Source of the DNA: Gammaproteobacteria bacterium
Lineage (GTDB): Bacteria > Pseudomonadota > Gammaproteobacteria > Arenicellales > JAJDZL01
Assembly: GCA_022823405.1 (NCBI GenBank)
Contig: JAJDXD010000110.1
Coordinates: 1-64,000, forward strand
Direction of reading: 5' to 3'
DNA length: 64,000 nt
A program made the position numbers and the translations under genes. The notes under the pieces were generated by a model. It saw only the letters and a list, made by a program, of their open reading frames with translations, did not search any database and was not told the origin of the DNA. Below, piece by piece: positions 45,132 to 63,516 of the stretch. Position 1 is the stretch's first letter; each line of letters starts with the position of its first letter.

Positions 45132-47141
45132 ATGGCGACCCGACGTTTGAATTTGCCTGAAGAGCTGGTTTTAATGCTTTTAAACGAGCAGACCGGTTAT
45201 TTTTATCAAGTACCCGGCTGGTCCCTAAATTGCGCTGTCATTGGAGCCGCACTCGCAGACCTTTCCCTACAGTCGCGAATTGATACAGACATTGAATCAC
45301 TTTTTGTATTGGACCCGACAGAAACTGGTGATCCAGTTTTAGATCTTTGTCTGAAGGCAATCTCGAAGGACAAGACTCCTCACAATGCCCGCTACTGGAT
45401 CGAACGACTCGCTGTCCACGCGGAGGACATAATTGATTCCACGCTTGACCGTCTGGTTAAATTGGAAATTCTGAAGCATCATGAAGGCGAGTTCTGGACG
45501 CTGGCTCCCACGATGTGGCATGGATACTCTCAAGAACATACAGCTAGTCAGTTAATCAAGTCGCGAATTAGCGATGGTATTTTTTCTGACACAATTCCCC
45601 TCCCGAGAGACATCATCATTGTCGGCCTTGTTAATTCGTGTGGTTTGTTTCACTTCATCTTTGAAATTGATGAAAAAGCAGAAAAACGAATTGAGCAAAT
45701 CTGTCAGATGGAACTGATCGGCCGCTCAATTGCTGCTGCTGTTAAAGAATCTATTGCTGTTCCGTTACTGCAGCGTCCCAGTTTCAAGAAAAAAATACCA
45801 TCCGTTCCACTGCTTAAGATTCTATCGAATCGACACGTTTGGAACGGTAATATACCTGCAATGCTTGCAGATTTCGCCAAAGAGTATGGTTCGGTTTTTC
45901 GGATTAACATACCTTTAACTCAGCCAATGACTTTCCTTGCCGGTATCGATATCAACCGCTGGGTTCATCGTAATGGGCGCCAGTACCTGACATCGAAGAA
46001 GTTTTATCAAGGTGTGGAAAATGAATACGGCGGTATCGGGGTGCTAGTCAGTCTAGACGGATCCGATCACTTCACTTTGCGTAGAGCTTTGCAGCGAGCC
46101 TATTCGGTCAGGAAACTTGAGAGTGAGATGAATTCTGTTTTCGATATGATTCGTAACCACATGAAGAGTCATTGGAAAGTGGGTTCACACGTGCAAGTGT
46201 ATGAAACTTCACGGAAATTATCTAATGCTCAAATCATGCCACTTCTTACGAGTACGGAAACGAACGATATCTTTGAGGATGTAATGAAGTGGAAGAACGC
46301 GGTTCAAATGATCCACATCGTTTTCAATCCACCCAAGTTTGTGACAAGATTGTTGTTCAATACTTCGCGAATGAAACGCGGTCGCAAAGCTGTTGATGAT
46401 GCTGTCAAAAGAGTTCAGCAGAACCATACGCCTGAACAACGGGTTGGTCAACCTTGGGAACTTGCTGATGAAACACTTTCTTTGTATGCCAGCGACCCGC
46501 AATTCTTCCCCGAGGCGAATTTGAGGTTCATGCTCTCGTCGCCGATGCTTGCAAGCCAGTACTTTTCCGATCTCATGGGTTGCGCCATCTACGCCATGGT
46601 AACACAACCCGACTTGTATGCAAAAATTCGCAGCGAAGCCGATGCCATTTTTTCCAATGGCGATCCAGACCCAGAGACCTTAGATTTATCGGATTTCGAC
46701 GTTACTCACCGCTTTGTGCTTGAGTGTCAGCGAATTTACCCTGTCGTCTATTTAATTCCTCGAAACGTGTCAAATTCGTGGTTGATCGATGACATCGAGT
46801 TACCCGTTGGAGAGCATGTTTTCATTGTTATGGGGGCCACACATTTTATGGAAGAGGCGTTCCCAGAACCATTCAAATTTGACATTGACCGTTATCTTCC
46901 GCCCACCAACGCGCATCGCAGTACTTCATTTGCTCCAGTTGGACTGGGCACCCATATGTGCCTCGGAATACGCTGGGTGGTGAAGCATATGGCTGTCAAT
47001 CTGTTGATGATCGCACATCACTTCAGGCTGGAATTGTCAGATCCGAATTTCAAGTTTAAATTCAACGCCTATTCCTCCCTGTCAGTCAGTAAAAAACTGA
47101 AAATTCATATTGCAGAACGATGGAAGGATTTTCCTGCCTGA
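45132..47141 (+). CDS. GPP34 (GOLPH3-like) domain fused to a cytochrome P450
   Basis: A 669-residue protein. Residues 5-210 match GPP34: L-N-L-P-E-E-L-V-L-M-L-L near the start, D-P-T-E-T-G-D-P-V-L-D near 75, Y-W-I-E-R-L, and the L-D-R-L-V-K-L-E-I-L segment. In eukaryotes this fold binds phosphoinositide at the Golgi. Residues 245-669 are a P450, with E-x-x-R as E-C-Q-R, and the haem loop F-A-P-V-G-L-G-T-H-M-C-L-G with the ligand Cys610. The I-helix lacks the usual A-G-x-x-T and reads A-S-Q-Y-F-S-D. There is no signal peptide. By location it may be a lipid- or sterol-modifying enzyme held at a membrane, which is inference. Confidence 0.85.
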   Translation: MATRRLNLPEELVLMLLNEQTGYFYQVPGWSLNCAVIGAALADLSLQSRIDTDIESLFVLDPTETGDPVLDLCLKAISKDKTPHNARYWIERLAVHAEDIIDSTLDRLVKLEILKHHEGEFWTLAPTMWHGYSQEHTASQLIKSRISDGIFSDTIPLPRDIIIVGLVNSCGLFHFIFEIDEKAEKRIEQICQMELIGRSIAAAVKESIAVPLLQRPSFKKKIPSVPLLKILSNRHVWNGNIPAMLADFAKEYGSVFRINIPLTQPMTFLAGIDINRWVHRNGRQYLTSKKFYQGVENEYGGIGVLVSLDGSDHFTLRRALQRAYSVRKLESEMNSVFDMIRNHMKSHWKVGSHVQVYETSRKLSNAQIMPLLTSTETNDIFEDVMKWKNAVQMIHIVFNPPKFVTRLLFNTSRMKRGRKAVDDAVKRVQQNHTPEQRVGQPWELADETLSLYASDPQFFPEANLRFMLSSPMLASQYFSDLMGCAIYAMVTQPDLYAKIRSEADAIFSNGDPDPETLDLSDFDVTHRFVLECQRIYPVVYLIPRNVSNSWLIDDIELPVGEHVFIVMGATHFMEEAFPEPFKFDIDRYLPPTNAHRSTSFAPVGLGTHMCLGIRWVVKHMAVNLLMIAHHFRLELSDPNFKFKFNAYSSLSVSKKLKIHIAERWKDFPA

Positions 47142-47341: not shown

Positions 47342-49672
47342 CTAGCGTGCGTGATGAGAAGATCCTTTCTTAAAATCACTCAGTTTACCCCTGGTTTTGT
47401 CCAAGGTCATTAGCAACGGCGGAAACAGCAATAAATCCGCCACCAGCGCAATTACAACAGTTAGTCCCACCAACACACCGAGTGTCTGATTAGCAGACAG
47501 TGCCGACGTTCCAAACACCATGAATCCCAAGGCAAAAATTGCTGTTGTTATCAATAGCGGACGGCCCACTATTCGAAATACCGGCCGGATAGCATCCTCA
47601 GGCGACTTCCCGCTAGCCCGCGCTCTCAGGTATTTTGTCATAAGATGTATCGTATCGTCCACGATGATACCAAAAGCAATTGCTGTAACAACCGAAGCCG
47701 ATATATCAACCTGTCCGACGACGTATCCCCATACACCCATAGCCATGATGGCTGGAACGAAATTGGGTATCAGGCTAATCAGACCAAACCGGAAACTTCT
47801 AAAGACAAATATCAGTAGCAACGAAACTATGGACATCGCAATGATAGTTCCGATCAGCATTCTTTCTATGTTTCGCATAATCGAATATGCACCGACTATC
47901 GTAACTCCGGTTGCTCCGGTTGCCATACCTGGAGTATTTTGATGCAGCCAGGATTTCGCACGTTCGTCGAGTTCAATCTTCTCACCAATCGACAAACCTT
48001 TAATTACAGCTGTTAAGCGAGTTTTGGAACGTTCGACATCAATGACATTGTTTAGATCGCGTCCAACTGGCAAAGAGAATTCGTAAAGCAGCAAGTATTG
48101 CGCGGCAAGTTCAGAATCCTCCGGCAGCTTATAAAAATTGGGGTCGTCACCATGCAGGTTTTCATTCAGCCGCTTAAGAACGTCAGTAAATGACACAACG
48201 TAAGAAACTTCCGGCTGCATTCGAAGCCACTGTGCGAAAGCGTCGACATTGCGCAGAAATTCAACATCAGTAACACCGCTATCGCGACCTGAATTAAGCG
48301 AGTACTCGAATGGCTCCAATGCTGAGAAATTTTCCACTATGAAATCGGTGGACCGTCGAAACTCGTAACTTTCATCTAGAATTTCCAAATGATTTTCGTT
48401 GAGCTCGATGCGCGTAATTCCGACAACGAGTACGGCTGTTAAGATTAAAAAAGTCCACAACAATCGGGTACTATTGGAAACAACAAATTTTGCCAGATGA
48501 TCAAAAAAGTATAGTTTTCCTGCTGGTGCAACCCGAGTTCTCATGGGCATAATCGACAACAATGCAGGCAAAAGTGTGACCGAATATACGAATGCGCACA
48601 TCGCTCCGAATGCGACGATGTTGCCCATGACTCGAAACGGGGGCATTTCCGAGAAATTCAAGCTGAGAAAACCGATAGCGGTGGTTAGTGAAGTCAGAAA
48701 TACAGGCCACGCGTTGAGTTGCAAGGAATGAATTGCGGCAGACCTGCGTGACATCCCTGAGCGCATACCATCTGCCATCACCTCAATTACATGAACCGAA
48801 TGAGCGATGGCAATCGCCATTAATACAAACAACGCTGCACCACTCTCTCCAAACAAAGGCATACCCGTCCAACCAGTAAACCCAAGCGCAGAAAGCAACA
48901 CGGTCATCAACATGGCAACGATCGCAATCATTCCCCAAATTGATCGAAGTACTATTAACGCGACCAGCAGCATCGTGCCAAACGCAATTGGTGCTAGAAC
49001 GGCTATATCGTTATTGATCGCGTCACGGACGGCGCGATTAAGAAAGAGATCACCATAGAGGTGATATTCAATTTCCGGATTGCTGGTGCGAGCTTCAACA
49101 GCAAGGCCATTTAGAAAGTCGACAACTTCAATTTTTGCTGCTTCTCGATCACTATCGGGAAGTGCAAGACTAACAACAAATCCACCGAGACGACCGTCTC
49201 GTGAAATAAAACGACCTGCGATGTCCGTCGTATCGAGTGCGATCCTCTGAATTCGCTCCAACTCTTCGTCACTCAGCGAAATTGCATCTTCGAATAGCGG
49301 TTCAACGATTAGTTCGTCTTCGAGTCCTTCGCTATGTGAGTAGTTTGCTAAAGAATCGACGCGAACTACATATGGAGTCAGCCAAAGATGTTCGGTCAGC
49401 TGTTCGACTGCGGCAAGTGCCTCACGGGTAAAAATGGTTTCAGTCGAAGGTGCGATCACTACAAGTGCGCTATCTGAAAGCGCGAACAGATCCTCCATTT
49501 CTTCGAGCTTAACCAAATGCGGATCATCTTTGTTGAAGTGATTTCGAAAATCAACGTCGACAGTAACAATTCGCGTAACTCCCGCAGCGAACACCGTCAC
49601 AATCAGCAACGAAAGAAAAATTGTTAACCAGCGGTATCTGACTACCAAGTTGAAAAATTCATAAACATTCAT
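47342..49672 (-). CDS. RND/MMPL-family (HAE3, HpnN-like) lipid exporter
   Basis: A 776-residue inner-membrane protein with two repeats, each one helix, a large periplasmic loop and five more helices. The second repeat holds the proton-relay type motif G-I-I-V-D-D-T-I-H-L near residue 670. The matching place in the first repeat reads A-I-A-H-S-V-H-V and lacks the Asp. It belongs with the MMPL/hydrophobe-exporter RND group that includes hopanoid (HpnN) and bacterial sterol (BstA) carriers. With a LolA-like carrier at 52876 and sterol genes beyond, sterol export is a reasonable guess. It is convergent with the P450 fusion gene. Confidence 0.85.
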   Translation of the reverse strand: MNVYEFFNLVVRYRWLTIFLSLLIVTVFAAGVTRIVTVDVDFRNHFNKDDPHLVKLEEMEDLFALSDSALVVIAPSTETIFTREALAAVEQLTEHLWLTPYVVRVDSLANYSHSEGLEDELIVEPLFEDAISLSDEELERIQRIALDTTDIAGRFISRDGRLGGFVVSLALPDSDREAAKIEVVDFLNGLAVEARTSNPEIEYHLYGDLFLNRAVRDAINNDIAVLAPIAFGTMLLVALIVLRSIWGMIAIVAMLMTVLLSALGFTGWTGMPLFGESGAALFVLMAIAIAHSVHVIEVMADGMRSGMSRRSAAIHSLQLNAWPVFLTSLTTAIGFLSLNFSEMPPFRVMGNIVAFGAMCAFVYSVTLLPALLSIMPMRTRVAPAGKLYFFDHLAKFVVSNSTRLLWTFLILTAVLVVGITRIELNENHLEILDESYEFRRSTDFIVENFSALEPFEYSLNSGRDSGVTDVEFLRNVDAFAQWLRMQPEVSYVVSFTDVLKRLNENLHGDDPNFYKLPEDSELAAQYLLLYEFSLPVGRDLNNVIDVERSKTRLTAVIKGLSIGEKIELDERAKSWLHQNTPGMATGATGVTIVGAYSIMRNIERMLIGTIIAMSIVSLLLIFVFRSFRFGLISLIPNFVPAIMAMGVWGYVVGQVDISASVVTAIAFGIIVDDTIHLMTKYLRARASGKSPEDAIRPVFRIVGRPLLITTAIFALGFMVFGTSALSANQTLGVLVGLTVVIALVADLLLFPPLLMTLDKTRGKLSDFKKGSSHHAR

Positions 49673-50678: not shown

Positions 50679-50708
50679 AGAATTCCCACCAATTTATGTT
50701 GCTTCGAA

Positions 50709-50996
50709 ATGACTCATGCCGCCTCTGGTAAAGCATTTTACTTTGACCAAACTGACGAAACACACAGGACCTACAACCCCCGCGCTGAGTATTACAGGGG
50801 AGAATTGACATCACGAACAGTGTTTGTTTCAGTGAACCAATTCGCGTACGAACGATTTAAAGAAATCGAATCCAGTCGTCGGGCGGAATACGAATACTTG
50901 TAGATTCTATAGGAGGAATTTTCTGACTTTGTCACGACAATTCAACTTGTGGCCGCCATCGCAGCGGCGAACGTAGTATTGGAAAGTGTGCCATAG
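50709..50996 (+). pseudogene. Decayed open frame of unknown family
   Basis: A 64-codon frame from ATG 50709 stops at 50903. The same phase then continues past a second TAG (50910-50912) with coding-like sequence (E-E-F-S-D-F-V-T-T-I-Q-L-V-A-A-I-A-A-A-N-V-V) to 50996. Two stop codons in one otherwise protein-like frame suggest a broken gene of about 95 codons. No family was recognised. Confidence 0.4.
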
Positions 50997-51264
50997 GATA
51001 AAATCCATTATTTGAGTGAAAGCCAGTTTGCCAGCATATGTGTCGTGTTATCCTTCACATCAGAACTCCATACAGATGCCAGGGGTTTCGATGAAATTTG
51101 CTGGGCGCTGTCAAGCCTGTGACACCAAAATATTGCAATTATTTTCGTAATAACAATATATTAGAAAGCTTGTTGATGACAAAGTTGAGGCAGTAGTGCT
51201 CCCGCTAATTGTCTTCTAGAATTCTTGATCAATTTAATTCGAAGTATCGACTCAGGGAGGAGAT
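50997..51264. promoter_or_regulatory. Upstream region of the first sterol methyltransferase
   Basis: No gene was seen. The segment 51213-51264 is similar to 54082-54137 before the second methyltransferase: both start CTTCTAGAA and share TTG-TCAAT and ACTCAG near the end. A strong purine-rich AGGGAGGAG lies just before the GTG start. Confidence 0.5.
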
Positions 51265-52329
51265 GTGGCTACTGATCAAAATAAACCATCGTCACGATCG
51301 CCAAAAAAAGCGATGAATTCTTCCAGTTTGTTCGGAGACCTGTCCAAGGACGAAATTAGTTCCGTGGCCAATGAATACCAACAAATTTATGAGTCTGGCG
51401 AGGAACATCGAAAAGAGACATATCAGAGATATGTCAATCATTATTACGACCTGGTAACTGGATTATTCGAGTTCGTCTGGGGCAGATCTTTTCATTTTGC
51501 ACCTCGACGATTGGGTGAGAGTCTTAAGTCGTCGAAATTCCGATATCAGCACTTTATTGCAGACCAAATGTCCCTGAAACCGGGAATGCATATACTCGAT
51601 GTAGGGTGTGGAATCGGAGCTCCAATGGCTGAATTGGCCCGCTATTCCGGGGCTAGTTTTGTGGGACTTAACAATAACGCGTACCAAATTAAACGTGCAA
51701 GACAAATCACGCAAGCTGAGGATATTGGGTCGTTGTGCGATTTTGTTCACGGCGATTACATGCAGATACCCGAAGACAACGATTGCTTTGATGGCGCGAT
51801 CGCCATCGAGTCCATGCAGCATGCACCAGACAAAACAGCAGCGTTCCGGGAAGTTTTTCGTGTATTGCGTCCAGGGGCTTGTTTTGCGGGTCACGATTGG
51901 TGTGTAACCGACTTTTTTGACTCGCAGAATGCTGAACACACGCGGATTATTGAAGACATTGAGATTGGGACCGCACTACCCAAAATTTCCACCGCAGCAG
52001 AAATTTGTGAAGCATTTTGCGAGGCTGGATTCGAAGTTCTCGATACGTGTGACCTTGCTCACATATCTGGCTCCGATATACCATGGTATAACATCTTTCA
52101 AGGTCGTCACTTCACACTTAGAAATATTCTAATCACACCTACCGGTCGTGCAGTCACCAAATTGGTGTTAAGGATAGGTGAGAAAGTACGGGGAGTTCCG
52201 AAAGGGACTCACAAAGTCACCACATTTCTGGGCAGGGCGGGGAATGCATTCATCGAAGCCGGTGAGACTGGAATATTTACACCACTATATTTTTTCCTGG
52301 TACGTAAACCCCATAATCCAGACAGTTAA
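51265..52329 (+). CDS. Sterol C-24 methyltransferase-like protein 1 (ERG6/SMT family)
   Basis: A 354-residue SAM-dependent methyltransferase of the SMT family. The sterol-site region I reads F-E-F-V-W-G-R-S-F-H-F (about residue 70). SAM motif I is L-D-V-G-C-G-I-G-A-P (from about residue 111), then L-N-N-N-A-Y-Q-I, G-D-Y-M, A-I-E-S-M-Q-H-A-P and I-P-W-Y, all in the order of yeast ERG6. The SMT_C carboxy domain (F-T-P-L-Y-F-F-L-V-R-K-P) is present. It would add a methyl to C-24 of a sterol side chain. The start is GTG 51265, aligned with the TTG start of the second copy. It is the less canonical of the two copies (I-G-A-P instead of V-G-G-P). Confidence 0.85.
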   Translation: MATDQNKPSSRSPKKAMNSSSLFGDLSKDEISSVANEYQQIYESGEEHRKETYQRYVNHYYDLVTGLFEFVWGRSFHFAPRRLGESLKSSKFRYQHFIADQMSLKPGMHILDVGCGIGAPMAELARYSGASFVGLNNNAYQIKRARQITQAEDIGSLCDFVHGDYMQIPEDNDCFDGAIAIESMQHAPDKTAAFREVFRVLRPGACFAGHDWCVTDFFDSQNAEHTRIIEDIEIGTALPKISTAAEICEAFCEAGFEVLDTCDLAHISGSDIPWYNIFQGRHFTLRNILITPTGRAVTKLVLRIGEKVRGVPKGTHKVTTFLGRAGNAFIEAGETGIFTPLYFFLVRKPHNPDS

Positions 52330-52875
52330 ATCGGAATTATTATTGCATTCCCCAGCTTGAATTACTCGCCAAACTCAAATAGGCTTCCATTTGTGGTAAT
52401 TTCTAAACATAATCAATAAGATAAACTACCACAAAGACAGAAAACCCATGTCCACACATAAATTTCATCCAAGCTTGAATTTGCCCCTTTTTCTGACGTG
52501 TCAGGTCCCCGTCCGTTTGGAACCATCGAAGGTGATACAATTAAATCTATGCCAAAGACTTGTGAGTTCGTACCGATATTCAGTCACCGTCGGAAGGTTT
52601 TGGCGCAGTATTTCTGATGGTCGACACCATTAGTTGTGACTTTTGACAGGATAATATCACCAAAAGTACCAATGATGAAAAATGGCGTTGATGACGTAAA
52701 CGATTGAACGTTGTTTCAAGGCCGAGGATGAAAACTGAAGTTCAACGTCAAGATAATCGTGCACCCGTCACTCCAGTTGACACGCGAACTATGTTCCAGA
52801 GTCGGGTCGCGGTCAGTAACTTCCTTATATCCCAGGCATTTACCACTCTTCTGTTGTAGTGATTAGGAGGTAAAA
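52330..52875. other. Gap before the LolA-like gene
   Basis: About 545 bases without a sure gene. A 43-codon frame at 52728-52859 (ATG, stop TAG) ends 16 bases before the LolA-like start, but its start has only a weak, too-close GAGG, so it is not called. A strong AGGAGG (52865-52870) serves the next gene. A coding-like trace near 52500-52617 was not recognised. Confidence 0.4.
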
Positions 52876-53694
52876 ATGCAAAGTCTTTCTCATCGTAATT
52901 ACAACCTCGGATCACTTAGCATCTATTTTGCTGTATTTGCATTGGTTATGACGCCATTCACCGTGAGTGCACAGAATGCTGAGGAAATAGGGTTTCAAAT
53001 TGCAATGGAAGCCCGCCAAAAGCAGTATGGATTTGTTAATTACACGGCAAGTCTTACCATGATTTTGCGAAACAAACAGGGTAAGGAATCTTCGCGCAAA
53101 GTGCGGTTGAAAGTGCTGGAAGTTGAAGAGGATGGCGACCGTTCCCTGTTTGTGTTTGATGAGCCGCGTGACGTCAAAGGAACAGCCTTTCTAGTTCATG
53201 CCCATAAGTTCGAGCCTGATGATCAATGGCTTTATCTGCCCGCGCTCAAACGAGTAAAACGGATCAGTTCGTCAAAACAGTCAGGTTCCTTTATGGGTAG
53301 TGAGTTTGCTTACGAGGATCTTGGCGCGGTTGAAATTGAGAAATATACGCATAAATTCTTGCGCGACGAACCCTGCGGCGATTTGCAGTGTGCAGTATTG
53401 GAGCGTGTCCCAATTAGCGCCGATTCAGGTTATTCGCGTCATCTGGTTTGGTACGACCGGGAAGAGCTTCGTGTCCAGCAGGTTCATTTCTTTGACCGTA
53501 GAAACGCACACCTAAAAACGATGACCCTTGAGAACTACGAAAAGTATCTCAATAATTTCTGGCAAGCTAGCAAGATCATGATGGTGAACCATCTTACCGG
53601 TAAGAGCACAGACATGCTTTGGTCGGATCTGGAGTTTAAGACTGACCTTGATGAAAGCAACTTTACGCAAACAGCGATAAAGCGTATCCGTTAG
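52876..53694 (+). CDS. LolA-like outer-membrane lipoprotein-sorting/lipid carrier protein
   Basis: A 272-residue protein with a signal peptide (hydrophobic core about 15-32, A-Q near 35), so periplasmic. The body matches the LolA-superfamily outer membrane lipoprotein-sorting proteins: D-E-P-R-D-V-K-G-T-A-F-L, W-L-Y-L-P-A-L-K-R-V-K-R-I and F-M-G-S-E-F-A-Y-E-D-L. Proteins of this group are often encoded with MMPL-type RND exporters. Here it lies between two sterol methyltransferases, so a sterol or sterol-lipid carrier role is inferred. AGGAGG is five bases before ATG. Confidence 0.85.
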   Translation: MQSLSHRNYNLGSLSIYFAVFALVMTPFTVSAQNAEEIGFQIAMEARQKQYGFVNYTASLTMILRNKQGKESSRKVRLKVLEVEEDGDRSLFVFDEPRDVKGTAFLVHAHKFEPDDQWLYLPALKRVKRISSSKQSGSFMGSEFAYEDLGAVEIEKYTHKFLRDEPCGDLQCAVLERVPISADSGYSRHLVWYDREELRVQQVHFFDRRNAHLKTMTLENYEKYLNNFWQASKIMMVNHLTGKSTDMLWSDLEFKTDLDESNFTQTAIKRIR

Positions 53695-54137
53695 AGGTGA
53701 GTAGAATTGAACTGAGCCGCCACTGAAAAATAGAATTTTGTTCGAGTATAGATTTGATTTAATTTAAGAAGTTGATGGTGCAATAAATTGGTGAGTTGTG
53801 AATGAGAACCGTAAAATACCACAGTTTAATTTTCTGCAGTTAGTCAAATATTTAAGGATATCCGTTATTCACCAACCTCGAATCTGCTCAAATTGAGTCA
53901 CGCTTTGGTTCAGTTGTTGCACGATTCCAATGCACAATGGCACTTACCTTTTTCTGTCTGACAGCGCATAATTCGAATGCCCTGAAGATTCAAGTATTGG
54001 ATTTATGATTTTTGCAGTGAATGATCAATTTACAAATCAATGTATAGGTTCCACCCAACTGTAAATCAATCCGTTGATAGCCTTCTAGAAGTTTTGCTCA
54101 ATGACTTTCGTTATTTCAACTCAGTAGGATTATTCGC
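53695..54137. other. Gap before the second sterol methyltransferase
   Basis: About 440 bases, AT-rich, with no recognisable coding. Its last 56 bases are the copy of the block found before the first methyltransferase, starting CTTCTAGAA at 54082. Confidence 0.4.
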
Positions 54138-55199
54138 TTGGCTGAAGAAAATAAAGATTTACCGTCGGTGTTTGACAAACAACTGAATTCTTCTGGGCTG
54201 CTCGGTGCCCTGTCCGATGATGAAGTCGATTCTGTGGTCAATGAATATGAAAAGATCTATGAGTCTGGCGAAGAACATCGAAAAGAAACCTACCAGAAAT
54301 TTGTCAACCACTACTACAACTTGGCAACTGACTTCTACGAGTTTGGCTGGGGCAATTCATTTCACTTTGCACCTCGACGACGAGGTGAGAGTTTTAAGGC
54401 GTCATTACTGAGGCATCAGCATTTTATTGCGGACCAAATGTCCCTGAAACCTGGAATGCATATTCTCGATGTGGGATGCGGAGTAGGGGGACCAATGGCT
54501 GAATTGGCTCGCTATTCAGGGGCTAAATTTGTAGGGCTTAACAACAACGCGTACCAAATAAAGCGCGCCAAAGAAGTTACACAGGCTGAGGACATCAAGT
54601 CGCTGTGCCGCTTCATTCATGGCGATTACATGAAGATACCTGAAGACAATGATTGCTTTGATGGTGCTTTCGCCATCGAGTCCATGCCCCATGCGCCAGA
54701 CAAGACAGCGGCGTTTGGAGAAATACTGCGTGTTCTTCGCCCAGGAGCGAGTTTTGCCGGGTACGATTGGTGCGTAACTGAATTGTTTGATTCGCAAAAT
54801 GCAGAACACAGGCGAATTATCAGAGACATTGAGATTGGAAATGCGCTGCCCAGAATATCCACCACGAAAGGGGTATACGAAGCATTGTGCGAGGCTGGAT
54901 TCGAGGTCCTTGATGCGTGCGACTTAGCTAGCGCATCGAACTCTGATATACCTTGGTATCGCCCCTTGCAAGGACGTGACATCACATTCCGGAGTATTCC
55001 CCGTACACCTGCGGGACGTGCGATTACCAACCTGGTGTTGAGAATCGGCGAGAGAGTACGACTGTTTCCTAAAGGCGCTCGTATGGTCAGCACCATTTTG
55101 AACAGAGCGGCTGATGCAATTGTCAAAGGTGGTGAAACCGGTACATTTACGACAATGTACTACTTTTTGGCACGTAAACCCCATCATTCAAACAGTTAA
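54138..55199 (+). CDS. Sterol C-24 methyltransferase-like protein 2 (ERG6/SMT family)
   Basis: A 353-residue paralogue of the 51265 protein, clearly similar over its whole length. Region I is Y-E-F-G-W-G-N-S-F-H-F, motif I L-D-V-G-C-G-V-G-G-P (from about residue 110), then L-N-N-N-A-Y-Q-I-K-R-A-K, A-I-E-S-M-P-H-A-P and I-P-W-Y-R-P-L. This is closer to eukaryotic ERG6 than copy 1. It starts at TTG 54138 with AGGA nine bases upstream. Two copies next to a sterol operon suggest sequential methylation giving C1 then C2 side-chain groups, or two substrates. It converges with the cyclase gene. Confidence 0.87.
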   Translation: MAEENKDLPSVFDKQLNSSGLLGALSDDEVDSVVNEYEKIYESGEEHRKETYQKFVNHYYNLATDFYEFGWGNSFHFAPRRRGESFKASLLRHQHFIADQMSLKPGMHILDVGCGVGGPMAELARYSGAKFVGLNNNAYQIKRAKEVTQAEDIKSLCRFIHGDYMKIPEDNDCFDGAFAIESMPHAPDKTAAFGEILRVLRPGASFAGYDWCVTELFDSQNAEHRRIIRDIEIGNALPRISTTKGVYEALCEAGFEVLDACDLASASNSDIPWYRPLQGRDITFRSIPRTPAGRAITNLVLRIGERVRLFPKGARMVSTILNRAADAIVKGGETGTFTTMYYFLARKPHHSNS

Positions 55200-55213
55200 G
55201 TCAGCTTTTTACA

Positions 55214-55234
55214 ATCGCCGTACCTAACGGCGAT
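55214..55234. repeat. Stem-loop between convergent genes
   Basis: ATCGCCGT and ACGGCGAT form a perfect 8-bp hairpin with a 5-base loop, 15 bases after the second methyltransferase. There is no T tract after it on either strand, so it may only partly act as a terminator. Confidence 0.4.
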
Positions 55235-55393
55235 GCTGTCAGTATCTGTCGAAATTAGTTAGTGAGATTGAAAGGAAAGCGCTGGGTCCGTTGAGCAATG
55301 CGAGTCACGCTGCACCTGAAACAATCCCGTCTGATGCGTTGTACCGGATAGATTAACCTCAATTTCGAAATTAATGTTCCGGTAAGTTTGAGG

Positions 55394-58300
55394 TCAGTCA
55401 GCTACTGTGCAGCAATCAGTGCCAACTTTCACCGACTGACGCATCTTACGTCGTTGCTGGTAGAGGCACAATGCATGCAAAGGAAAGTATTGTCGATACA
55501 GGACATAGTCCAACAGAGCAGTGCGAAAAAACACACCAACCATATTTTGCTTTGGCCATGTTCCATCCACATTTTGCGTGTTGAGCAAATAGCCAATTCC
55601 ATTTGAAATCGCGTGCCAGTTGGAGTCACCTGCCTCAAGCAGTGCGATGAGAGCCCACGCGGTCTGGATAACTTGACTCTCCACAAGCCCGACGTATTGG
55701 CCAGTGAAGCAGCCTCGGTGACTTTCTCCCCAACCGCCATCATTGCGTTGGCGCTCTAACAGCCAATGGCAGGCCAGTCGCAGTGCCGGGTCGCCAGGAT
55801 TCGCTCCCGCCGCAAGCAAACCCCGAATCCCAAACAAGGTGCCGTAAATGTACTGAACGCCCCACACGCCGCGCCATGATCCGTCATTCGCTTGCGTTCG
55901 GCGAAGCCAGGCTTCGCCTCTAGAAATGGCGTTCGTTACGGTCTGGTCTGCAAGTTGTGGAAAATGACTCTTGAATTCACTAAGTGCGCTAAGGCACGAT
56001 GCGGTGCATTCGACAAAGGAGTGCTCGGTCATTGATTCGCCAAACATCTCAGCTGGATTAAGCCACTCCAGACCAAGCATAGAACGTTTTGATTCATAAC
56101 TGCCAAAACCACCATTTCGATTTTGACTCCGTAACATGAACTGTACAGCTTCACTCAACGTGCTGGTGTCAGCATTTTTGCCATGGACAGCTAGAATTCC
56201 AAGTGCAGCCTCTGCAGTACAGTCGGACACCGGCCAGCCATGCCATCCTCCCGCAAAACACCAACCACCTTTAGGGTCGGCACGATTCGCCTCTTGATAT
56301 CCCTGAAAACTGTTGACAATTTGCTCTTGGCTCAAAAATTCAGAGCCATGTGTGAGTGCGTTCTGAACCTTGTCTAATTCAGCTACCTTCGCCAACGCCT
56401 GCAACGCAAACCCGGTATCCCACGAAGCACTCCTTGCACCGGTAACTCGCGTACCTTGTTCCTCGTCCTCCCAAATCCAACCATCCAACTGCGATAGCGC
56501 CTGCAACATGTCAGAGTCATTCCGATCATGCAACCACAAGGCAAGAATATTGAGCAAACCGCTGACAGGAGATATGCTTGTGTGGTTAGTGGTTTGCAAC
56601 TCCCACTTGATTCGTTTGAGCAGTCTGTCGACAGTTTGAGTCCTTTGGCGCTTTAGATGAACTTTTTCATACGCTCTTGTCAGGCAATACCCGGCTCGAA
56701 GCCACAGACTCGGCCGGCAAAATAAATCAGCTTCTCGCAAACTGTTTCGGGCTTCGGAAAAATTCACCTTGTCAAAACCTTGGGGAAAAAGTTCTTCTCG
56801 TAAAGAGGTGATCGTGGATGTAATCGGTGCTTGGTATCGTTGTGAGTAAACTGTTGCCATAGCCATGTAAATTAGCCTGGTGTGGCAATACCACTTAGAG
56901 GGATGTAATACAAACCAACGCGGCAGTCGCCACAATTCTGGCAGTACAGCATGGACTCCGTCCCAGTCGTAGAGATTAAGCAGCGCTAGCCAAAACTTGC
57001 CCCAACTTGGAATATTGACAACCCCTTCTGCCTGCAGGAACTGCCTCGCTGGTTCGATCAAAGGATCATCTTGACTGACTCCAAGCAGTCTCGATGTGAC
57101 ATACACAAGGGTGGTAACGAAAAGATGAGGTGAGGAATGCTCGTGCATACCCCATACCCCTTGTTCAAGACGAGTCTTCTCGAAACTAAGCAGGATAAGT
57201 TGTCGTCGTTGTGGCTCCAGCGGCTGATCGAGAATGTAGTGTAGCAGAGCGTATTGGGCGGTGAGCATGGGACACCAAACCATTTCTCCTTCCCAGCTGC
57301 CATTGTCATTCTGGAGACTCAACAAACGCTCTGTAGCCCTCTCCAAGGCAGGACCAACATCGGGAGAATGAATCTTTTTGGGAATTGACCTGGAATCATC
57401 GGATCTCGTTGGAATGGAAATTAGGAATGCGCGGGCTAATGAATCACGGGCAAGAAAGTCTTTTTCGCCACCTCTATTTCGGTCTCTACGTTGGGCGATA
57501 ATGCCGCGCACCAGCCATACCAACCGTCCAGTGGTAGCATTCATGACTTTGAATGCACGGTTCCAGGGTAGTCTTTCAAAGTTACGCGGGAGTTGTCTAA
57601 GGAGCGTAATGGCGACTATCGTGGAAACAGTGAAAGAAAGATGAACAACCGACGTGTTTTCACAAGCAAGTAGACTTACAGTTCCTTTGCGCGCTAAAGG
57701 ATGTTTTCGCCAATTACTATAAATCGCTCTCCTTAGTTCCGCTGATTCGCGTCGATAGTCAGCAAAAACCTCGTATAAACCCATCGCCAGTAACTCAGGG
57801 CCGCGAGTTGCCAAGTGACGTTTGGAGGAAAATGCTCGAAAGTTCTCGTGCATCGCCAAATCGAAAGCATCACCAAAACCGAGAGTCATGCCGACCGCAG
57901 TCATAGGATGGTAATTTCCGACTGCGTCGCCTACAAGAACAAGGTTTGAATTCCCATGAGTCGTTCGCGCTCTAATTTCATTGGTTGCAGCATGAAATTT
58001 TCCGTTCTGGAGTGCTTCGATAAATCCAGATCTGAGTTGTTCAGGTAGCTGATCGGCATAAGCTTCCGACAACAGCCCAATACGGTCACGCGGAATCCAG
58101 TGATTCAACGGCACATCGACGATTATCTTGACGCGATCACGCCCCAATTGGTACATGAGAATCGGACCTGGCCCACCCAGCAGAACATGGCCATAACCCT
58201 TCAGTTGCAAGTCTTCCCCTTCAACGATCACCCCCACCATACGCGAGCAGATTACCCGACCAGTCTGCAATCCCAGTGACTTGCGAACAGTTGATGCGCG

Positions 58301-58774
58301 ACCGTCGGCACCGACAATTCGGTTGGCGTTGACAGTAGTATTGGTTCCGTTGAGATCTATGGATATCTGACCAGATGTGGCTTCAAGAACCTTAACTGGA
58401 ACAATAAAGTCGATATTAGACTCATTTTGTACACTTTGATGAAGAAGCGAGACGAGTGCTGAATGTTCACATGCCAAACCGCGGGACCCGTTCGCATAAG
58501 GAAGTACAATCGGTTCCGAGCCGTCTTCCGGAAACACAGCAAACCCGTTGCCGGGGACGCTTTCGATTTGCGATTCAATCTCAACCCCGACCTCGTTTAG
58601 AATTCGAAGAGCCGGCGGATGCAACCACTCACCGGCCAGTCGTTTGGAGGCCTTCGGATTCGCTTCGAACAGAGCAACTTGAGCGCCCTTTTTTGCGTAG
58701 GCGAGGGCACATACGCTCCCGACAGGACCAGCGCCGACGATGGCGACGTCATAGAATCCTAGACTATTGCTCAA
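55394..58774 (-). CDS. Squalene monooxygenase fused to oxidosqualene cyclase
   Basis: One uninterrupted polypeptide of about 1126 residues. Part 1 (about 8-400) is a squalene epoxidase: FAD motif V-A-I-V-G-A-G-P-V-G near 10, G-A-D-G-R near 155, and L-V-G-D-A...H-P-M-T-A-V-G-M near 280. Part 2 (about 475-1110) is an oxidosqualene cyclase: H-P-S-K-W-Y-C-H-x-R, the catalytic V-S-D-C-T-A-E with Asp851, and repeated QW motifs (Q-N-R-N-G-G-F, D-G-S-W-R-G-V-W-G-V-Q). The D-C-T-A-E motif separates it from squalene-hopene cyclases (D-x-D-D). It would turn squalene into oxidosqualene and then a protosterol such as lanosterol. The start is TTG 58774, overlapping the CYP51 stop as TTGA; the open frame to 58843 lies within CYP51. 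Confidence 0.92.
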   Translation of the reverse strand: MSNSLGFYDVAIVGAGPVGSVCALAYAKKGAQVALFEANPKASKRLAGEWLHPPALRILNEVGVEIESQIESVPGNGFAVFPEDGSEPIVLPYANGSRGLACEHSALVSLLHQSVQNESNIDFIVPVKVLEATSGQISIDLNGTNTTVNANRIVGADGRASTVRKSLGLQTGRVICSRMVGVIVEGEDLQLKGYGHVLLGGPGPILMYQLGRDRVKIIVDVPLNHWIPRDRIGLLSEAYADQLPEQLRSGFIEALQNGKFHAATNEIRARTTHGNSNLVLVGDAVGNYHPMTAVGMTLGFGDAFDLAMHENFRAFSSKRHLATRGPELLAMGLYEVFADYRRESAELRRAIYSNWRKHPLARKGTVSLLACENTSVVHLSFTVSTIVAITLLRQLPRNFERLPWNRAFKVMNATTGRLVWLVRGIIAQRRDRNRGGEKDFLARDSLARAFLISIPTRSDDSRSIPKKIHSPDVGPALERATERLLSLQNDNGSWEGEMVWCPMLTAQYALLHYILDQPLEPQRRQLILLSFEKTRLEQGVWGMHEHSSPHLFVTTLVYVTSRLLGVSQDDPLIEPARQFLQAEGVVNIPSWGKFWLALLNLYDWDGVHAVLPELWRLPRWFVLHPSKWYCHTRLIYMAMATVYSQRYQAPITSTITSLREELFPQGFDKVNFSEARNSLREADLFCRPSLWLRAGYCLTRAYEKVHLKRQRTQTVDRLLKRIKWELQTTNHTSISPVSGLLNILALWLHDRNDSDMLQALSQLDGWIWEDEEQGTRVTGARSASWDTGFALQALAKVAELDKVQNALTHGSEFLSQEQIVNSFQGYQEANRADPKGGWCFAGGWHGWPVSDCTAEAALGILAVHGKNADTSTLSEAVQFMLRSQNRNGGFGSYESKRSMLGLEWLNPAEMFGESMTEHSFVECTASCLSALSEFKSHFPQLADQTVTNAISRGEAWLRRTQANDGSWRGVWGVQYIYGTLFGIRGLLAAGANPGDPALRLACHWLLERQRNDGGWGESHRGCFTGQYVGLVESQVIQTAWALIALLEAGDSNWHAISNGIGYLLNTQNVDGTWPKQNMVGVFFRTALLDYVLYRQYFPLHALCLYQQRRKMRQSVKVGTDCCTVAD

Positions 58775-60159
58775 TGGAAAATGCCAGATTTTGAGCGATG
58801 TTGGTAACGAACCCGACAAGGTTCCTTGGGACCTGTCACCCAACTGCCATAATTCGGGGCAGGAATGTCTCGATCGGTAAAAAAATCAAAGCGATCAAGC
58901 AGTACAGTCCAGATCGTTTTAAGTTGCAGGTAGGCAAAATGCTTCCCCATACACATGTGTTTACCGCCGCCAAAACCTATCAAAGTGTAGCGGTGTTGTT
59001 TGTCTTCGCGGTTCGGTGATGCAAATCTTTCCGGATAGAACCGGTCTGGATTGGCGAATAGGTGAGGCAAGCGGTGAGCAGCTGCCGGTGATACCATGGC
59101 GAGGGTGCCGGCGGGTACGGAATGATCACCGAATTGCACAGGTTTGAGTACTTTTCGAATCAACAAAATCAATGGCGGATGTAGTCGCTCGTTTTCGCGT
59201 ATGGTGTACTCCATCAACGATTGTTGCTTTAAGGTGTCAATGTTTGAAGCGTTTTCATTTGCATAAACTTCCTGCATCTCGTTCCGCAATTTGTCAATGT
59301 ACGACGGCGAATTCAAAAGTTCCAAACAGGTCCAGGTTGCAAGAACTGCGCTAGTGTGCTGACCCGCGAACAATACGGTCAGTAGAATTCCAGTAATCTC
59401 TTCGTCGGTAACCGCACGGCTATCTTTGTAACGACTTTCCATAACTTTCTGCATGAAATCATCCGACCTAGCACCCGTACGCCGTCGCTCCATGACAATT
59501 CGTTCAAACATTTCGGAAATGGATTTCCGTGCCCGGTCGCGACTTCGATGCGCCGGTGTCGGTAAATGAGGAAAGAAAAAGCCTAGGGTGTTGATTCCAT
59601 TCTGCAAATCGTGATAGCTTTCCGCAAACCCAGCGTTCAACTGATTACGGACCTCAGGACCTATGAGGCAGTGACTGGCAATATTGATCGTAAGCTGATT
59701 CATCGCCTGTGGTAAATCCAATTCTCCTTGTTGGCCCATGGCATCAGCAAAATTCATTGTCTCCTCAAACATAATGTCAGAAAACTTGCGTAACGCGGAT
59801 TCGCGCAGTTCCGGGTAGAGAAATCCCAACTGCTCAGACATCAGTTCGGGGGAAACGTCGTAGGCTACACCACGACCAAAAATTGGTACTGTGAATTGAT
59901 AGACATCTTTAGCACTCATGTGATCTCGGGGCGCCCTGAAATAACAATCATGCGCTTCGGGACCGGCAAACAAGACGAATTTACGCGTACCGAGACGAAA
60001 TTGAAACAACTCTCCCTGCTCATGCCACCCACGGATCAACATCGAAACCGGATCCTTTAAAAACTCCGTCAGATGACCAATCAAGGGCAATCCACCGGTC
60101 AGCATCGGAATATTCTTAGCCGGTGGCGGTGTGTGATGTGTTGAGGAAAGGGTCGTCAT
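58771..60159 (-). CDS. cyp51: Sterol 14-alpha-demethylase, CYP51 family
   Basis: A 462-residue P450. CYP51 features are Y-x-F-x-V-P-I-F-G-x-G-V-A-Y-D in the B-C region, the I-helix L-F-A-G-Q-H-T-S-A, E-x-x-R as E-N-E-R-L-H-P-P, and the haem loop G-F-G-G-G-K-H-M-C-M-G with Cys403. It would remove the C-14 methyl of lanosterol-type sterols. There is no membrane anchor and no ferredoxin fused at the end, unlike the Methylococcus enzyme, so its electron donor lies elsewhere. ATG 60159 has AAGGAAG upstream. It is the fourth gene of the sterol operon. Confidence 0.92.
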   Translation of the reverse strand: MTTLSSTHHTPPPAKNIPMLTGGLPLIGHLTEFLKDPVSMLIRGWHEQGELFQFRLGTRKFVLFAGPEAHDCYFRAPRDHMSAKDVYQFTVPIFGRGVAYDVSPELMSEQLGFLYPELRESALRKFSDIMFEETMNFADAMGQQGELDLPQAMNQLTINIASHCLIGPEVRNQLNAGFAESYHDLQNGINTLGFFFPHLPTPAHRSRDRARKSISEMFERIVMERRRTGARSDDFMQKVMESRYKDSRAVTDEEITGILLTVLFAGQHTSAVLATWTCLELLNSPSYIDKLRNEMQEVYANENASNIDTLKQQSLMEYTIRENERLHPPLILLIRKVLKPVQFGDHSVPAGTLAMVSPAAAHRLPHLFANPDRFYPERFASPNREDKQHRYTLIGFGGGKHMCMGKHFAYLQLKTIWTVLLDRFDFFTDRDIPAPNYGSWVTGPKEPCRVRYQHRSKSGIFH

Positions 60160-60186: not shown

Positions 60187-61287
60187 CTAGTAGACAAACG
60201 GTAACATTGAATAACGGACTCGCTGTTTGTAGCGCGTCCACAGATCGCCATACTTGGCACAACAGCGTTGCTCATCACGTAGTGAGCGGTGACACAGCAG
60301 TACAGTCAACCATACAGGCAAGAGGTAGGGTACCCAAGACTCAAATCCTGTGGTCAGGGCAAATGAAAAGTAGACACAAATTTCACCCGTATAGTTAAGG
60401 TGGCGTCCAACACCCCAAAAACCGGAGATCAGCAACCGACCTTCCAAGGTACGGGCGGGTTGACCCCAAATCCTAATATCAGCTTTACGTTTGAAGCGGT
60501 GCTTTTGTTGATTGGCGCCGCGAAATAGCCAGAAACCGAATCCAAATAACAACACAATTGCTACTGCGGCAATAGGATGCAGCACATCAGACGGGTGCAC
60601 CAGCCACCAACCCACCAAACAGTAAAAAAATGGCACCAAGACATAATCTCCCCAAATCAGCATCCATCCAAAGCGCTCACTGATCATGTCCCATGTGTGA
60701 ACCATTCCCTGTTCAAACTGGAAATAGTTGAATACATACAAAAAAGTGAAGATTTGATATAGCATCATTGCCAGCGTCAGTTCACCGTAAGTTTCGTATT
60801 GCATGACGGCGAATGAGGCATTAAAGAGTGCGAGACCAATGAGAGAGGGGCGATAGCTAAATAGCTTAATGTCCACTCCGAGCCAGGTCGGATTGGACAG
60901 CGCACCGAAAAAATATCCACGCCAAAAGCCAGTAGTGGTTTCCTGATTACGGGTAGCCCGGAAATAAAGCCATGTAGCAAGTAAAAATGCGAATACGTTT
61001 GCAGCCACGAACAAAGCGGCAAATTGCGAATACAGCACCGAAAGCGAAAACCAACCCATTGACTGGACAATAGCTGTCACAAATACCGTAATCAGAAACA
61101 GCGCAAGACCATTGAGTTTATATTCGCGCGTATTGCCCTCCATATCCGGACCTTTGATTCGGCGTCCAGGTACCACTACAGAACCCAAAAACAGCGCCCC
61201 AACGAATACCAAAACCATGCCCGCCGCTTCAAGCAGGTTCAGGCTCGTCAGCATTGTCAACATCGATATAAAGTTCGGTTCAGGCAT
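60187..61287 (-). CDS. C-14 sterol reductase (ERG24/ERG4 family)
   Basis: About 366 residues, a multi-helix membrane protein. The carboxy-terminal signature is complete: L-L-I-S-G-F-W-G-V-G-R-H-L-N-Y-T-G-E, then H-R-S-L-R-D-E-Q-R-C-x-x-K-Y-G-x-x-W-x-x-Y. This is the NADPH-binding end of delta-14/delta-24(28)-type sterol reductases. Next to CYP51 it most likely reduces the C-14 double bond left by demethylation. ATG 61287 overlaps the sdmA stop by eight bases; an earlier in-frame start at 61314 is possible. Confidence 0.88.
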   Translation of the reverse strand: MPEPNFISMLTMLTSLNLLEAAGMVLVFVGALFLGSVVVPGRRIKGPDMEGNTREYKLNGLALFLITVFVTAIVQSMGWFSLSVLYSQFAALFVAANVFAFLLATWLYFRATRNQETTTGFWRGYFFGALSNPTWLGVDIKLFSYRPSLIGLALFNASFAVMQYETYGELTLAMMLYQIFTFLYVFNYFQFEQGMVHTWDMISERFGWMLIWGDYVLVPFFYCLVGWWLVHPSDVLHPIAAVAIVLLFGFGFWLFRGANQQKHRFKRKADIRIWGQPARTLEGRLLISGFWGVGRHLNYTGEICVYFSFALTTGFESWVPYLLPVWLTVLLCHRSLRDEQRCCAKYGDLWTRYKQRVRYSMLPFVY

Positions 61288-62383
61288 TATCGAAACTGTT
61301 TTCCATGGATTCACGGGCCAAGTATTCTTCCCACTTGCGAACAGTCAAATTTTGAAACTCGCGTACAACCGGATTGAATTCAATGGGAGGTGCGTCCCAG
61401 TGTGCCTCGTAACCCAGTTGTTCTGCCTCGACGGCAACTTTGTCCTGAGTTAACAAGGGAGCAATCATCATGCGGTTTGAGATTTTCATGGCTGCGCTCA
61501 TTGCAAAACGGGGAATTCTTATGGGCAGTAAGGGTATTTTTAAAGATTTGAAATAAAACAGAAAAAATACTCGTGTGGTCCGTTCGTCAATTGGTAAAAC
61601 AAATAACCAGTGTTTTATCCACTCATCGGTATTCGACCACTGGTAGGGGTATTGGAAGCAAAGCGTCATGCTGTTGGTATCAAATTTGTCGTGCTCCACA
61701 AAAAATCCCGAAATCCGCCCGCGTCCGACCTTCGTGTCATAAGCAAGATGAACGTTATCCCCAACCGTCTCATATTGGGTGAGGACGGCATCCTGAAACG
61801 GACGATACTTGCGGTGAAGATAGGCGTGCGTGAAATCGCTGACGTTATCGATAATCATCGAGTGATGGGCTGACCAAGTGAAGCTGAGGGGTACACAGGC
61901 CCAGCGTTTTGGCCCTTCAAGTTCGGGAATATCCGGAATCTCTCGTTGTTCAGAGCGTTCAGCCTTGCCGGGAAACAGCCAGACTAGACCATAGCGAACC
62001 TTGACAGGATAACTCTTGATTGAAGGCTTCAGACCTTTGTTTCCGCCCGACTTCGTCTGTGGGATATCGGCCCGTCGACCGGTCTGGTCATATTCCCAGC
62101 CGTGATATGCGCAGACAAGCCGACAGCCTTGAACATTCCCTAGTGAGAGTTTGAGCTGGCGATGTGCGCATCGGTTTTCGAGTGCGTAAAATGATCCATC
62201 TTCTGCACGATACAGCGCAATAGACTGTTTCCAAAAAATAACTTCGACTACGGTTCCAGGTTTGATTCGACGCACTTCTTCGACTGCGTACCAATAGTCG
62301 GGGTCCATGCCGGTTGCCCGAACTTTCTGACGCAAATTTCCAGCTTGCTCAAAACTTGGTGGTGAATTATGCAGCGAACTCAA
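61280..62383 (-). CDS. sdmA: Rieske-type sterol C-4 demethylase oxygenase SdmA
   Basis: A 367-residue Rieske non-haem iron oxygenase. The [2Fe-2S] motif is C72-A-H74 ... C91-A-Y-H94 and the mononuclear iron site has D183, H186 and H190 (S-D-F-T-H-A-Y-L-H). In Methylococcus, SdmA with SdmB removes a C-4 methyl from sterols by a route distinct from the eukaryotic one. The context (sdmB upstream, sterol genes downstream) supports this call. The start is TTG 62383, overlapping the sdmB stop as TTGA, with AAGGAGG six bases upstream. No reductase partner is in the operon. Confidence 0.85.
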   Translation of the reverse strand: MSSLHNSPPSFEQAGNLRQKVRATGMDPDYWYAVEEVRRIKPGTVVEVIFWKQSIALYRAEDGSFYALENRCAHRQLKLSLGNVQGCRLVCAYHGWEYDQTGRRADIPQTKSGGNKGLKPSIKSYPVKVRYGLVWLFPGKAERSEQREIPDIPELEGPKRWACVPLSFTWSAHHSMIIDNVSDFTHAYLHRKYRPFQDAVLTQYETVGDNVHLAYDTKVGRGRISGFFVEHDKFDTNSMTLCFQYPYQWSNTDEWIKHWLFVLPIDERTTRVFFLFYFKSLKIPLLPIRIPRFAMSAAMKISNRMMIAPLLTQDKVAVEAEQLGYEAHWDAPPIEFNPVVREFQNLTVRKWEEYLARESMENSFDNA

Positions 62384-63516
62384 GTTGAGCCTCCTTGTGG
62401 CGTTGCCTGTAGATTCTTGTTAGTCATGGTACTCGCCGTTGCGAATTCGGATTTCTCTGTGGGAAATTTTGCATCCGGATTTATTATTGCGTTCGGACGG
62501 TTGTAGTGAAACGCATAGGCGTCATTAATCGCCTCTCGAATACTGGTTGGCTGATAACCTAGTTCCTGCCTGGCTTTTTTGAGGCTGGCATGACGACGCA
62601 GCCTTAACAGGCGGATGGCACCAGGGGTAAAGCGCTGATTGAAATCCGGATGAAATCGACTTAAATAAAAACTTGCCACTTCTGAGAAAGCCAGCATTAT
62701 GGGGGATGGTATCTGTCGAACCGGACGCGCAATTCCGCTAACCTCCTCGAATAAATCCAGAATATCTGAGATGGTTTTGAACTCGCTGCTAAAAATGTAT
62801 TTCTCGCCCGAACGTCCATGCTCCATACACAACAGATGTCCTTGTACGATGTCGCGTGCAGCGACAAACTCGAATCCACCATCTATGTAAGCAAGTAGTT
62901 TTCCATTGGTGTAGTCGCACAAGGTTTTTCCGAGTCGCGATGGAAAAAAATCAGCGCCACCGATTACAGCACAACACGTTGCGACAATGACTTCCTGACC
63001 TTTTGCAGCTGCGCGCCAACACTCGTGCTCGACTTGCGACTTGCTGCGCTCATATGGCATCGTGCGTACCATGGGATAGAATGGCATCGTCTCATCACTC
63101 GGTAAGGAGGGGTTGTCGAGATCATAACCAACTGCACTGAATGAGCCTGTAACCACCACTCGACCTGCTTCGGTCTCACGCGCCGCTCGCAAAACGTTAC
63201 GGGTACCGAGAACATTAGTCTCGAATATTTCCCGACGATGGTCACGATTACCATCGATGGTAGAAATTTTCGCTGCAACATGATAGACACCTTGGCAACC
63301 TTCCATTGCGTCCCGGGTAGCTTTTAAATCCCGAATGTCACCATAGCGGCACTCAACATCCAGATTTTTCAGTCCTTCATTGTTGTCCTCGTGCCTTAGC
63401 AACACACGAATTGGAATGCCATCATTAAGTAACCTTCGCACGAGATTTGATCCTACATGCCCGGCTGCACCGGTTACAAAAACGGGTGCATTGCGTGAAT
63501 TATCAATCGAGTTCAA
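62380..63516 (-). CDS. sdmB: NAD(P)-dependent sterol 4-carboxylate decarboxylase-like SdmB
   Basis: A 378-residue extended SDR of the 3-beta-hydroxysteroid dehydrogenase/epimerase type. The cofactor motif T-G-A-A-G-H-V-G is at 15-22, catalytic Y155-E-R-S-K159, and the S-F-S-A-V-G strand precedes it. In bacterial C-4 demethylation SdmB oxidises C-3 with loss of the C-4 carboxyl. It is the first gene of the operon sdmB-sdmA-C14 reductase-cyp51-cyclase. Start TTG 63516 is the only reasonable one after an in-frame TGA. The last 30 or so residues are low-complexity. A perfect 8-bp palindrome lies upstream. Confidence 0.82.
   Translation of the reverse strand: MNSIDNSRNAPVFVTGAAGHVGSNLVRRLLNDGIPIRVLLRHEDNNEGLKNLDVECRYGDIRDLKATRDAMEGCQGVYHVAAKISTIDGNRDHRREIFETNVLGTRNVLRAARETEAGRVVVTGSFSAVGYDLDNPSLPSDETMPFYPMVRTMPYERSKSQVEHECWRAAAKGQEVIVATCCAVIGGADFFPSRLGKTLCDYTNGKLLAYIDGGFEFVAARDIVQGHLLCMEHGRSGEKYIFSSEFKTISDILDLFEEVSGIARPVRQIPSPIMLAFSEVASFYLSRFHPDFNQRFTPGAIRLLRLRRHASLKKARQELGYQPTSIREAINDAYAFHYNRPNAIINPDAKFPTEKSEFATASTMTNKNLQATPQGGST

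Follow-up and report, generated by a model that had tools for sequence, protein, structure and literature searches.

Two unequally diverged sterol C-24 methyltransferase copies beside a gammaproteobacterial sterol operon, a candidate case of division of labour

What would a bacterium do with two copies of a sterol C-24 methyltransferase (SMT, the ERG6-type enzyme), and would both perform the same step of side-chain alkylation? The question is raised by a 64,000-nucleotide stretch of DNA from a gammaproteobacterium of the order Arenicellales (assembly GCA_022823405.1, contig JAJDXD010000110.1, positions 1 to 64,000; hereafter the window), in which two SMT-like genes, SMT1 and SMT2, lie on either side of a lipid-carrier-type gene and next to a set of sterol genes. 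The window is part of an 83 kb contig (C94) of a metagenome-assembled genome (MAG) of 3.15 Mb in 166 contigs. The explanation we favour, with a probability of roughly 0.7, is that SMT2 performs the first C-24 methylation and that SMT1 is a specialised copy, both acting within a bacterial de novo sterol pathway.

Both proteins are very likely members of the sterol C-24 methyltransferase family that serve this pathway, an identity for which domains, motifs, synteny and co-occurrence give good support. An earlier note on this DNA had described two ERG6-like proteins with region I and the SMT carboxy domain, flanking a lipid carrier beside a sterol operon, and this description was borne out in the reading frames, the LolA-like carrier and the operon domains collected in Table 1. 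The C-terminal sterol domain (Sterol_MT_C, PF08498; curated cut-off 21.7 bits) was detected with E values of 1.6e-17 in SMT1 and 1.3e-18 in SMT2, and the S-adenosylmethionine (SAM) methyltransferase domain (PF08241) scored above its curated cut-off in both. These were the sole PF08498 matches in the whole genome, and 14 control genomes gave zero matches. The W-G-x-S-F-H-F motif of region I is found at residue 72 of SMT1 and residue 71 of SMT2; SMT1 also keeps HAP and the SAM motif core. Region I of SMT2 is canonical save for a conservative Y83F and N87 (Erg6 numbering, used for all substitutions below) and contains the aromatic motif Y81-F91, which SMT1 retains only in part. The predicted model of SMT1 (predicted local distance difference test, pLDDT, 77; predicted template modelling score, pTM, 0.77; 11-sequence alignment) has a class I SAM methyltransferase fold with an additional C-terminal helical part. 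Its fold matches in the PDB were small-molecule methyltransferases, including geranyl-diphosphate C-methyltransferases, and the modelled fold is compatible with sterol methylation, which is no proof of it. An ungapped alignment of SMT1 and SMT2 covers 351 residues at 71% identity. The genes do lie side by side, as the term tandem in the earlier note implied, but they form no tight operon, since 1.8 kb separates them and the intergenic gaps measure 546 and 443 bp. Promoter and terminator scans gave results close to chance level. In the sister species (G004), SMT1 (L008) carries a three-residue in-frame insertion (FTD) in its C-terminal part.

A survey of the distribution of these genes covered 109 genomes from the order. 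Sterol_MT_C was found in seven of them and a full-length fused squalene epoxidase/oxidosqualene cyclase (hereafter fused cyclase) in 11; SMTs were present in 7/11 genomes with the fused cyclase versus 0/98 without it (Fisher p 1e-8, uncorrected for relatedness within the order). The four fused-cyclase genomes in which no SMT was detected all belong to one genus. The full-length fusion occurs in 10 relatives, with read-through of stop codons in three cases. Samples of the class and phylum (about 400 genomes, samples only) yielded no SMT outside the order. Within the genus of the window species, G001, G002 and G004 each carry two SMTs, and neither an SMT nor a full-length cyclase was found in G003 and G005 (one contig each). 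Related clusters are present in three genera of the order, with the same gene order in G004. The G004 record (JAJEHQ010000004.1) bears the isolate name p16x60bins.63, a style like that of the Ircinia sponge MAGs in PMC9531527 (e.g., jk18x7bins.61), and from this style we infer a sponge-symbiont origin of the lineage.

The SMTs of the order form two old lineages, type A and type B, with an A-B identity of 35-42%; SMT2 is 52-62% identical to the A-type SMTs of related genomes. Type A adjoins the cyclase in the window, G002, G004, G040 and G079, lies about 13 kb from it on the same contig in G001, and sits on a separate contig in G078. Type B is present in G001, G002 and G040, which carry both types, and in G002 and G040 it is located on the side of the locus where GPP34-P450 and LolA lie. 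In the window species and G004, the pair SMT1/SMT2 represents instead a lineage-specific duplicate of A. Type B was not detected in their genomes, with some doubt left by MAG incompleteness, and a search of the window contig with SMT1 and SMT2 masked found no B-type remnant. A tRNA-Lys (ctt) at 49859-49934 lies near SMT1, and in G002 a tRNA-Lys (ctt) adjoins the B-type SMT, making this gene a possible insertion or rearrangement landmark.

SMT1 and SMT2 were recovered as sisters with an ultrafast bootstrap of 100, and the duplication is therefore specific to the window lineage; the tree was built without named distant SMTs, and a scan with the pair matched just one close relative. Branch lengths were 0.29 for SMT1 versus 0.13 for SMT2. 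Tajima tests counted SMT1:SMT2 changes of 44:21 with the outgroup G040A (p 0.006) and 30:10 with Erg6 of Saccharomyces cerevisiae (p 0.002), and relative-rate tests were significant with A-type outgroups and Erg6 (p 0.002 to 0.019). The region I numbering of the Erg6 row, the only eukaryotic one, agrees with PMC5711494. Counted at conserved columns, those on which four or more of five A-type SMTs agree, private changes number 29 in SMT1 and six in SMT2. Four of the 29 fall in region I (D79G, F80L, Y81F and G84V), and further changes affect the SAM motif region (G132A) and region IV (Y223H). Y81F we take to be one of the yeast Erg6 mutations that lead to 24-ethyl sterols. In eukaryotic SMTs, affinity labelling and mutagenesis assign the control of product outcome to region I, whose aromatic motif steers the methylation-deprotonation reaction (PMC5711494), and active-site mutants of yeast Erg6 yield 24-ethyl sterols, as cited in PMC10070321. 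Between SMT1 and SMT2, nonsynonymous divergence (dN) was 0.184-0.205 and synonymous divergence (dS) 0.81-1.09, giving a dN/dS of about 0.17-0.25. Purifying selection persists on SMT1. That SMT1 is a decaying copy was not favoured, as its frame is intact and its dN/dS low, though the latter comes from few changes.

Within the proposed pathway, the fused enzyme would epoxidise squalene and cyclise the product to a lanosterol-type sterol, which would be demethylated at C-14 (CYP51, ERG24) and at C-4 (SdmA/SdmB). Judging from their family and context, the SMTs would use SAM to methylate the delta-24 side chain at C-24, the conserved A-type enzyme SMT2 presumably carrying out the first methylation. 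SMT1 arose by the lineage-specific duplication, in a lineage without a detectable B-type SMT, and would be a specialised copy, in which the sterol-contacting region I and the C-terminal domain changed under selection that kept the gene intact. This specialisation would most likely concern another substrate or product, such as a second, C-24(28), methylation. The pair could make methyl and then ethyl sterols, which the lopsided divergence of region I in SMT1 would fit; a second copy need not mean a second step, because single bacterial SMTs perform one, two or three methylations (PMC10070321). More tentatively, SMT1 may be neofunctionalised and take the place of the B-type SMT found in its relatives, with a distinct alkylation, be it a second C-24 methylation or another position or product. 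If so, two-step side-chain alkylation would have evolved independently by bacterial duplication, in parallel to the SMT1/SMT2 split of plants. The accelerated, region-I-altered SMT1 is an indirect hint of a plant-type division into 24-SMT and 28-SMT, in which one copy would prefer delta-24(25) and the other delta-24(28) substrates. The step performed by each SMT is something that we only infer.

Several observations weigh against the specialised-copy explanation. Relative-rate tests with B-type outgroups showed no significant difference between SMT1 and SMT2, the enrichment of SMT1 changes in region I is mild and at best suggestive (p 0.066), and the low dN/dS of SMT1 between the window species and G004 (dN 0.0012, dS 0.0127) comes from very few substitutions. 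D79, F80 and Y81, common to all A-type relatives and Erg6, are altered in SMT1, and for this reason SMT1 could have lost sterol activity. Some of the bacterial SMTs tested elsewhere were inactive on desmosterol and 24-methylenecholesterol (PMC10070321). On the supporting side, no geranylgeranyl-reductase family protein scored over the cut-off in the genome, and so there is no clear C-24 reductase of the Bsr type known in Myxococcota (PMC12004948), an enzyme that would eliminate the delta-24 bond; a DHCR24-type reductase was not searched for. The delta-24 bond may survive for SMT action, and the exact final sterol is not predictable.

Alternative explanations fare less well. Unlikely, in our view, is a pair of SMTs with identical reactions, one of them being redundant, a matter of dosage or expressed under other conditions. 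The ability of single bacterial SMTs to manage up to three methylations (PMC10070321) would suit such a pair, as would their 71% identity and the long upstream region that each gene has to itself, but the 29 versus six private changes together with retained purifying selection are not predicted by redundancy alone. We are also rather doubtful that the product of the cluster is a steroid secondary metabolite, such as a sarasinoside-like norlanostane saponin with the SMTs as tailoring enzymes, which would be compatible with a first-step SMT2 and a specialised SMT1. The homologous msb cluster has been proposed for sarasinosides (PMC7074536), a UGT-like glycosyltransferase is encoded on the contig, and the cluster has a P450-GPP34 fusion linked to it; yet the msb-sarasinoside link is itself only proposed, no sugar-nucleotide/glycosyltransferase gene set stood out among the open reading frames read in the window and elsewhere on the contig, and the C-4 demethylation and RND/LolA genes suit a membrane sterol. 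It is improbable that SMT1 has left sterols altogether, for another isoprenoid or for a role as an inactive or modulating partner (e.g., in a mixed oligomer with SMT2). The substitutions D79G, F80L, Y81F and G132A at positions common to all A-type relatives and Erg6 would agree with such a loss, whereas the kept W-G-x-S-F-H-F, HAP and SAM motif core, the score of the C-terminal sterol domain and the purifying selection on SMT1 argue otherwise. A eukaryotic contaminant or mis-binned contig, conceivable for a MAG with genes as classically eukaryotic as SMTs, is very unlikely and was rejected, because intron-free bacterial genes (glcDEF, coq7, citrate synthase) accompany the locus on the 83 kb contig, another MAG of the genus (G004) has the same gene order, and related clusters exist in three genera.

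Table 1. Coordinates and supporting matches of the SMT pair and of the neighbouring genes in the window.
Feature	Position	Strand	Evidence
GPP34-cytochrome P450 fusion (GPP34, Golgi phosphoprotein 3 domain)	45132..47141	+	PF05719 and PF00067
MMPL/RND transporter (HAE3/HpnN-like), candidate sterol exporter	47342..49672	-	PF03176, E 1e-32
SMT1, diverged sterol C-24 methyltransferase copy	51265..52329	+	PF08498, 63.8 bits; region I GLFEFVWGRSFHF; GTG start; 354 aa
LolA-like periplasmic lipid-carrier-type protein, between SMT1 and SMT2	52876..53694	+	PF17131, E 1.1e-59
SMT2, conserved sterol C-24 methyltransferase	54138..55199	+	PF08498, 67.3 bits; canonical region I DFYEFGWGNSFHF; TTG start; 353 aa
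Fused squalene epoxidase/oxidosqualene cyclase, 1149 aa	55394..58843	-	PF08491, PF13249, PF13243
CYP51-type sterol 14-demethylase	58771..60159	-	PF00067, E 6e-62; FGRGVAYD, AGQHTS and heme-Cys motifs
ERG24/TM7SF2-type sterol C-14 reductase	60187..61314	-	PF01222, E 2.5e-73
SdmA-like Rieske oxygenase (C-4 demethylation)	61280..62383	-	NCBIfam SdmA, 402.7 bits, under the 600-bit cut-off
SdmB-like NAD(P)-dependent dehydrogenase (C-4 demethylation)	62380..63516	-	NCBIfam SdmB, 282.6 bits, under the 600-bit cut-off

The sterol genes follow the order sdmB-sdmA-ERG24-CYP51-fused cyclase and converge with the SMT pair at the cyclase end. The fused cyclase scored 718.6 bits against TIGR03463, under the 851-bit cut-off, and its name and those of the Sdm proteins rest on family and context because their scores lie under the most specific NCBIfam cut-offs. 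Its motifs are intact (GxGxxG, VGADGR, GDA for flavin adenine dinucleotide, and V872-S-D874CTAE), and V872, two residues ahead of the catalytic DCTAE aspartate D874, is of the lanosterol type by the valine criterion used in PMC7074536. The genome encodes one protein of the ERG4/ERG24 family and therefore no second sterol reductase of that family. The single squalene synthase gene is on another contig. Four FA_hydroxylase proteins are encoded, among which there could be a candidate C-5 desaturase; the ERG2 search was uninformative, as the control genomes gave no match.

The MMPL protein scored 115 bits against the HpnN model, under its cut-off, and 27 bits against BstA (cut-off 1400), and the carrier gene is LolA-like, not BstB; the Bst sterol transport set (BstA RND, BstB and BstC) was thus not recovered here. 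MMPL homologues lie near sterol genes in G001 and G002, and LolA-like homologues lie close to sterol genes in G001, G002 and G040 (in G040, by the GPP34-P450 gene). The MMPL/RND and LolA-like proteins are a candidate sterol export pair distinct from BstABC. Orthologues of the GPP34-P450 fusion (at least 46% identity) were found in 11 of the 109 genomes, and 10 of these are among the 11 fused-cyclase genomes (Fisher 3e-12), so that the fusion is sterol-linked by co-occurrence; all orthologues keep the heme Cys. No description of a bacterial GPP34-P450 fusion was found in the literature searched. Just beyond the sterol operon, a second GPP34-domain protein with a hydrophobic-rich C-terminal part is encoded (L012:772-2121), adjoined by a gene for a CxxCH-rich (multiheme-like) protein. 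The same contig encodes a UGT/EryCIII-like glycosyltransferase (L012:15416-16741, C94 about 79.4-80.7 kb), a possible enzyme of sterol or other glycosylation. Compared with G004, positions 44000-62000 are about 98-99.5% identical and the immediate flanks 91-97%, a mosaic divergence along the contig that suggests recent interspecies recombination of the sterol region.

Steranes alkylated at C-24 are taken as fossils of eukaryotes, and 24-isopropyl steranes as those of sponges. A lanosterol-type pathway with a duplicated, diverging SMT in a gammaproteobacterial relative of sponge symbionts adds to the case for a bacterial input to the sterane record. SMT1 and SMT2, as naturally paired sister enzymes, also lend themselves to identifying the residues that set methylation number, a question left by the 2023 study of bacterial SMTs (PMC10070321).

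Compared with known systems, the locus is of a described kind. The novelty first claimed for it goes too far, as its architecture is that of the published msb cluster and of the clusters of steroid genes (CSGs) of sponge symbionts (PMC7074536, PMC9531527): sdmB-sdmA-ERG24-CYP51-cyclase, with an SMT gene convergent at the cyclase end. In the msb cluster (MT026193.1), from a gammaproteobacterial symbiont of Melophlus sarasinorum, msbA and msbB are SdmB- and SdmA-like, msbC is an ERG24, msbD a CYP51, msbF a sterol methyltransferase, and msbE a fused squalene epoxidase/lanosterol cyclase with the key valine, both the fusion and the valine (V872) recurring in the window; squalene synthase lies on another scaffold, as in the window genome (PMC7074536). 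One SMT was reported there, whereas in the window two tandem A-type SMTs enclose a LolA-like gene and are accompanied by MMPL and GPP34-P450 genes. CSGs, according to PMC9531527, occur in 115 of 537 Ircinia MAGs from 11 classes including Gammaproteobacteria, with horizontal gene transfer inferred. They likewise run from a DFR-like and a hypothetical gene through ERG24, CYP51 and LSS to an opposite-strand SMT1/ERG6 (or FDFT1) at the 3' end, and the text consulted describes no unequally diverged tandem SMT duplication. Bacterial SMTs active in vitro were published in 2023, including two in one Sandaracinus MAG cluster, and three bacterial SMTs each add all carbons of the 24-isopropyl chain (PMC10070321); that study tested 24 bacterial SMTs and reported two bacterial clades. 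The earlier note was thus right about an SMT pair in a bacterium that encodes a sterol pathway but overstated how unusual this is; two SMTs in one bacterium are not new in themselves. The Sandaracinus cluster, with two functional SMTs in one sterol cluster and a context of SMT, oxidosqualene cyclase and sdmAB, resembles the window but comes from another phylum (a myxobacterium). Erg6 of S. cerevisiae shares the methyltransferase and Sterol_MT_C domains and region I Y81-F91 and is 39% identical to SMT2; SMT1 departs from it by Y81F, F80L, D79G and G132A, and the window genes are bacterial and stand beside a sterol operon. What the window adds to these systems is the confinement of SMTs to fused-cyclase genomes within the order, the A and B lineages with a lineage-specific A duplicate, and the lopsided change of SMT1, which makes this tandem pair a candidate for division of labour.

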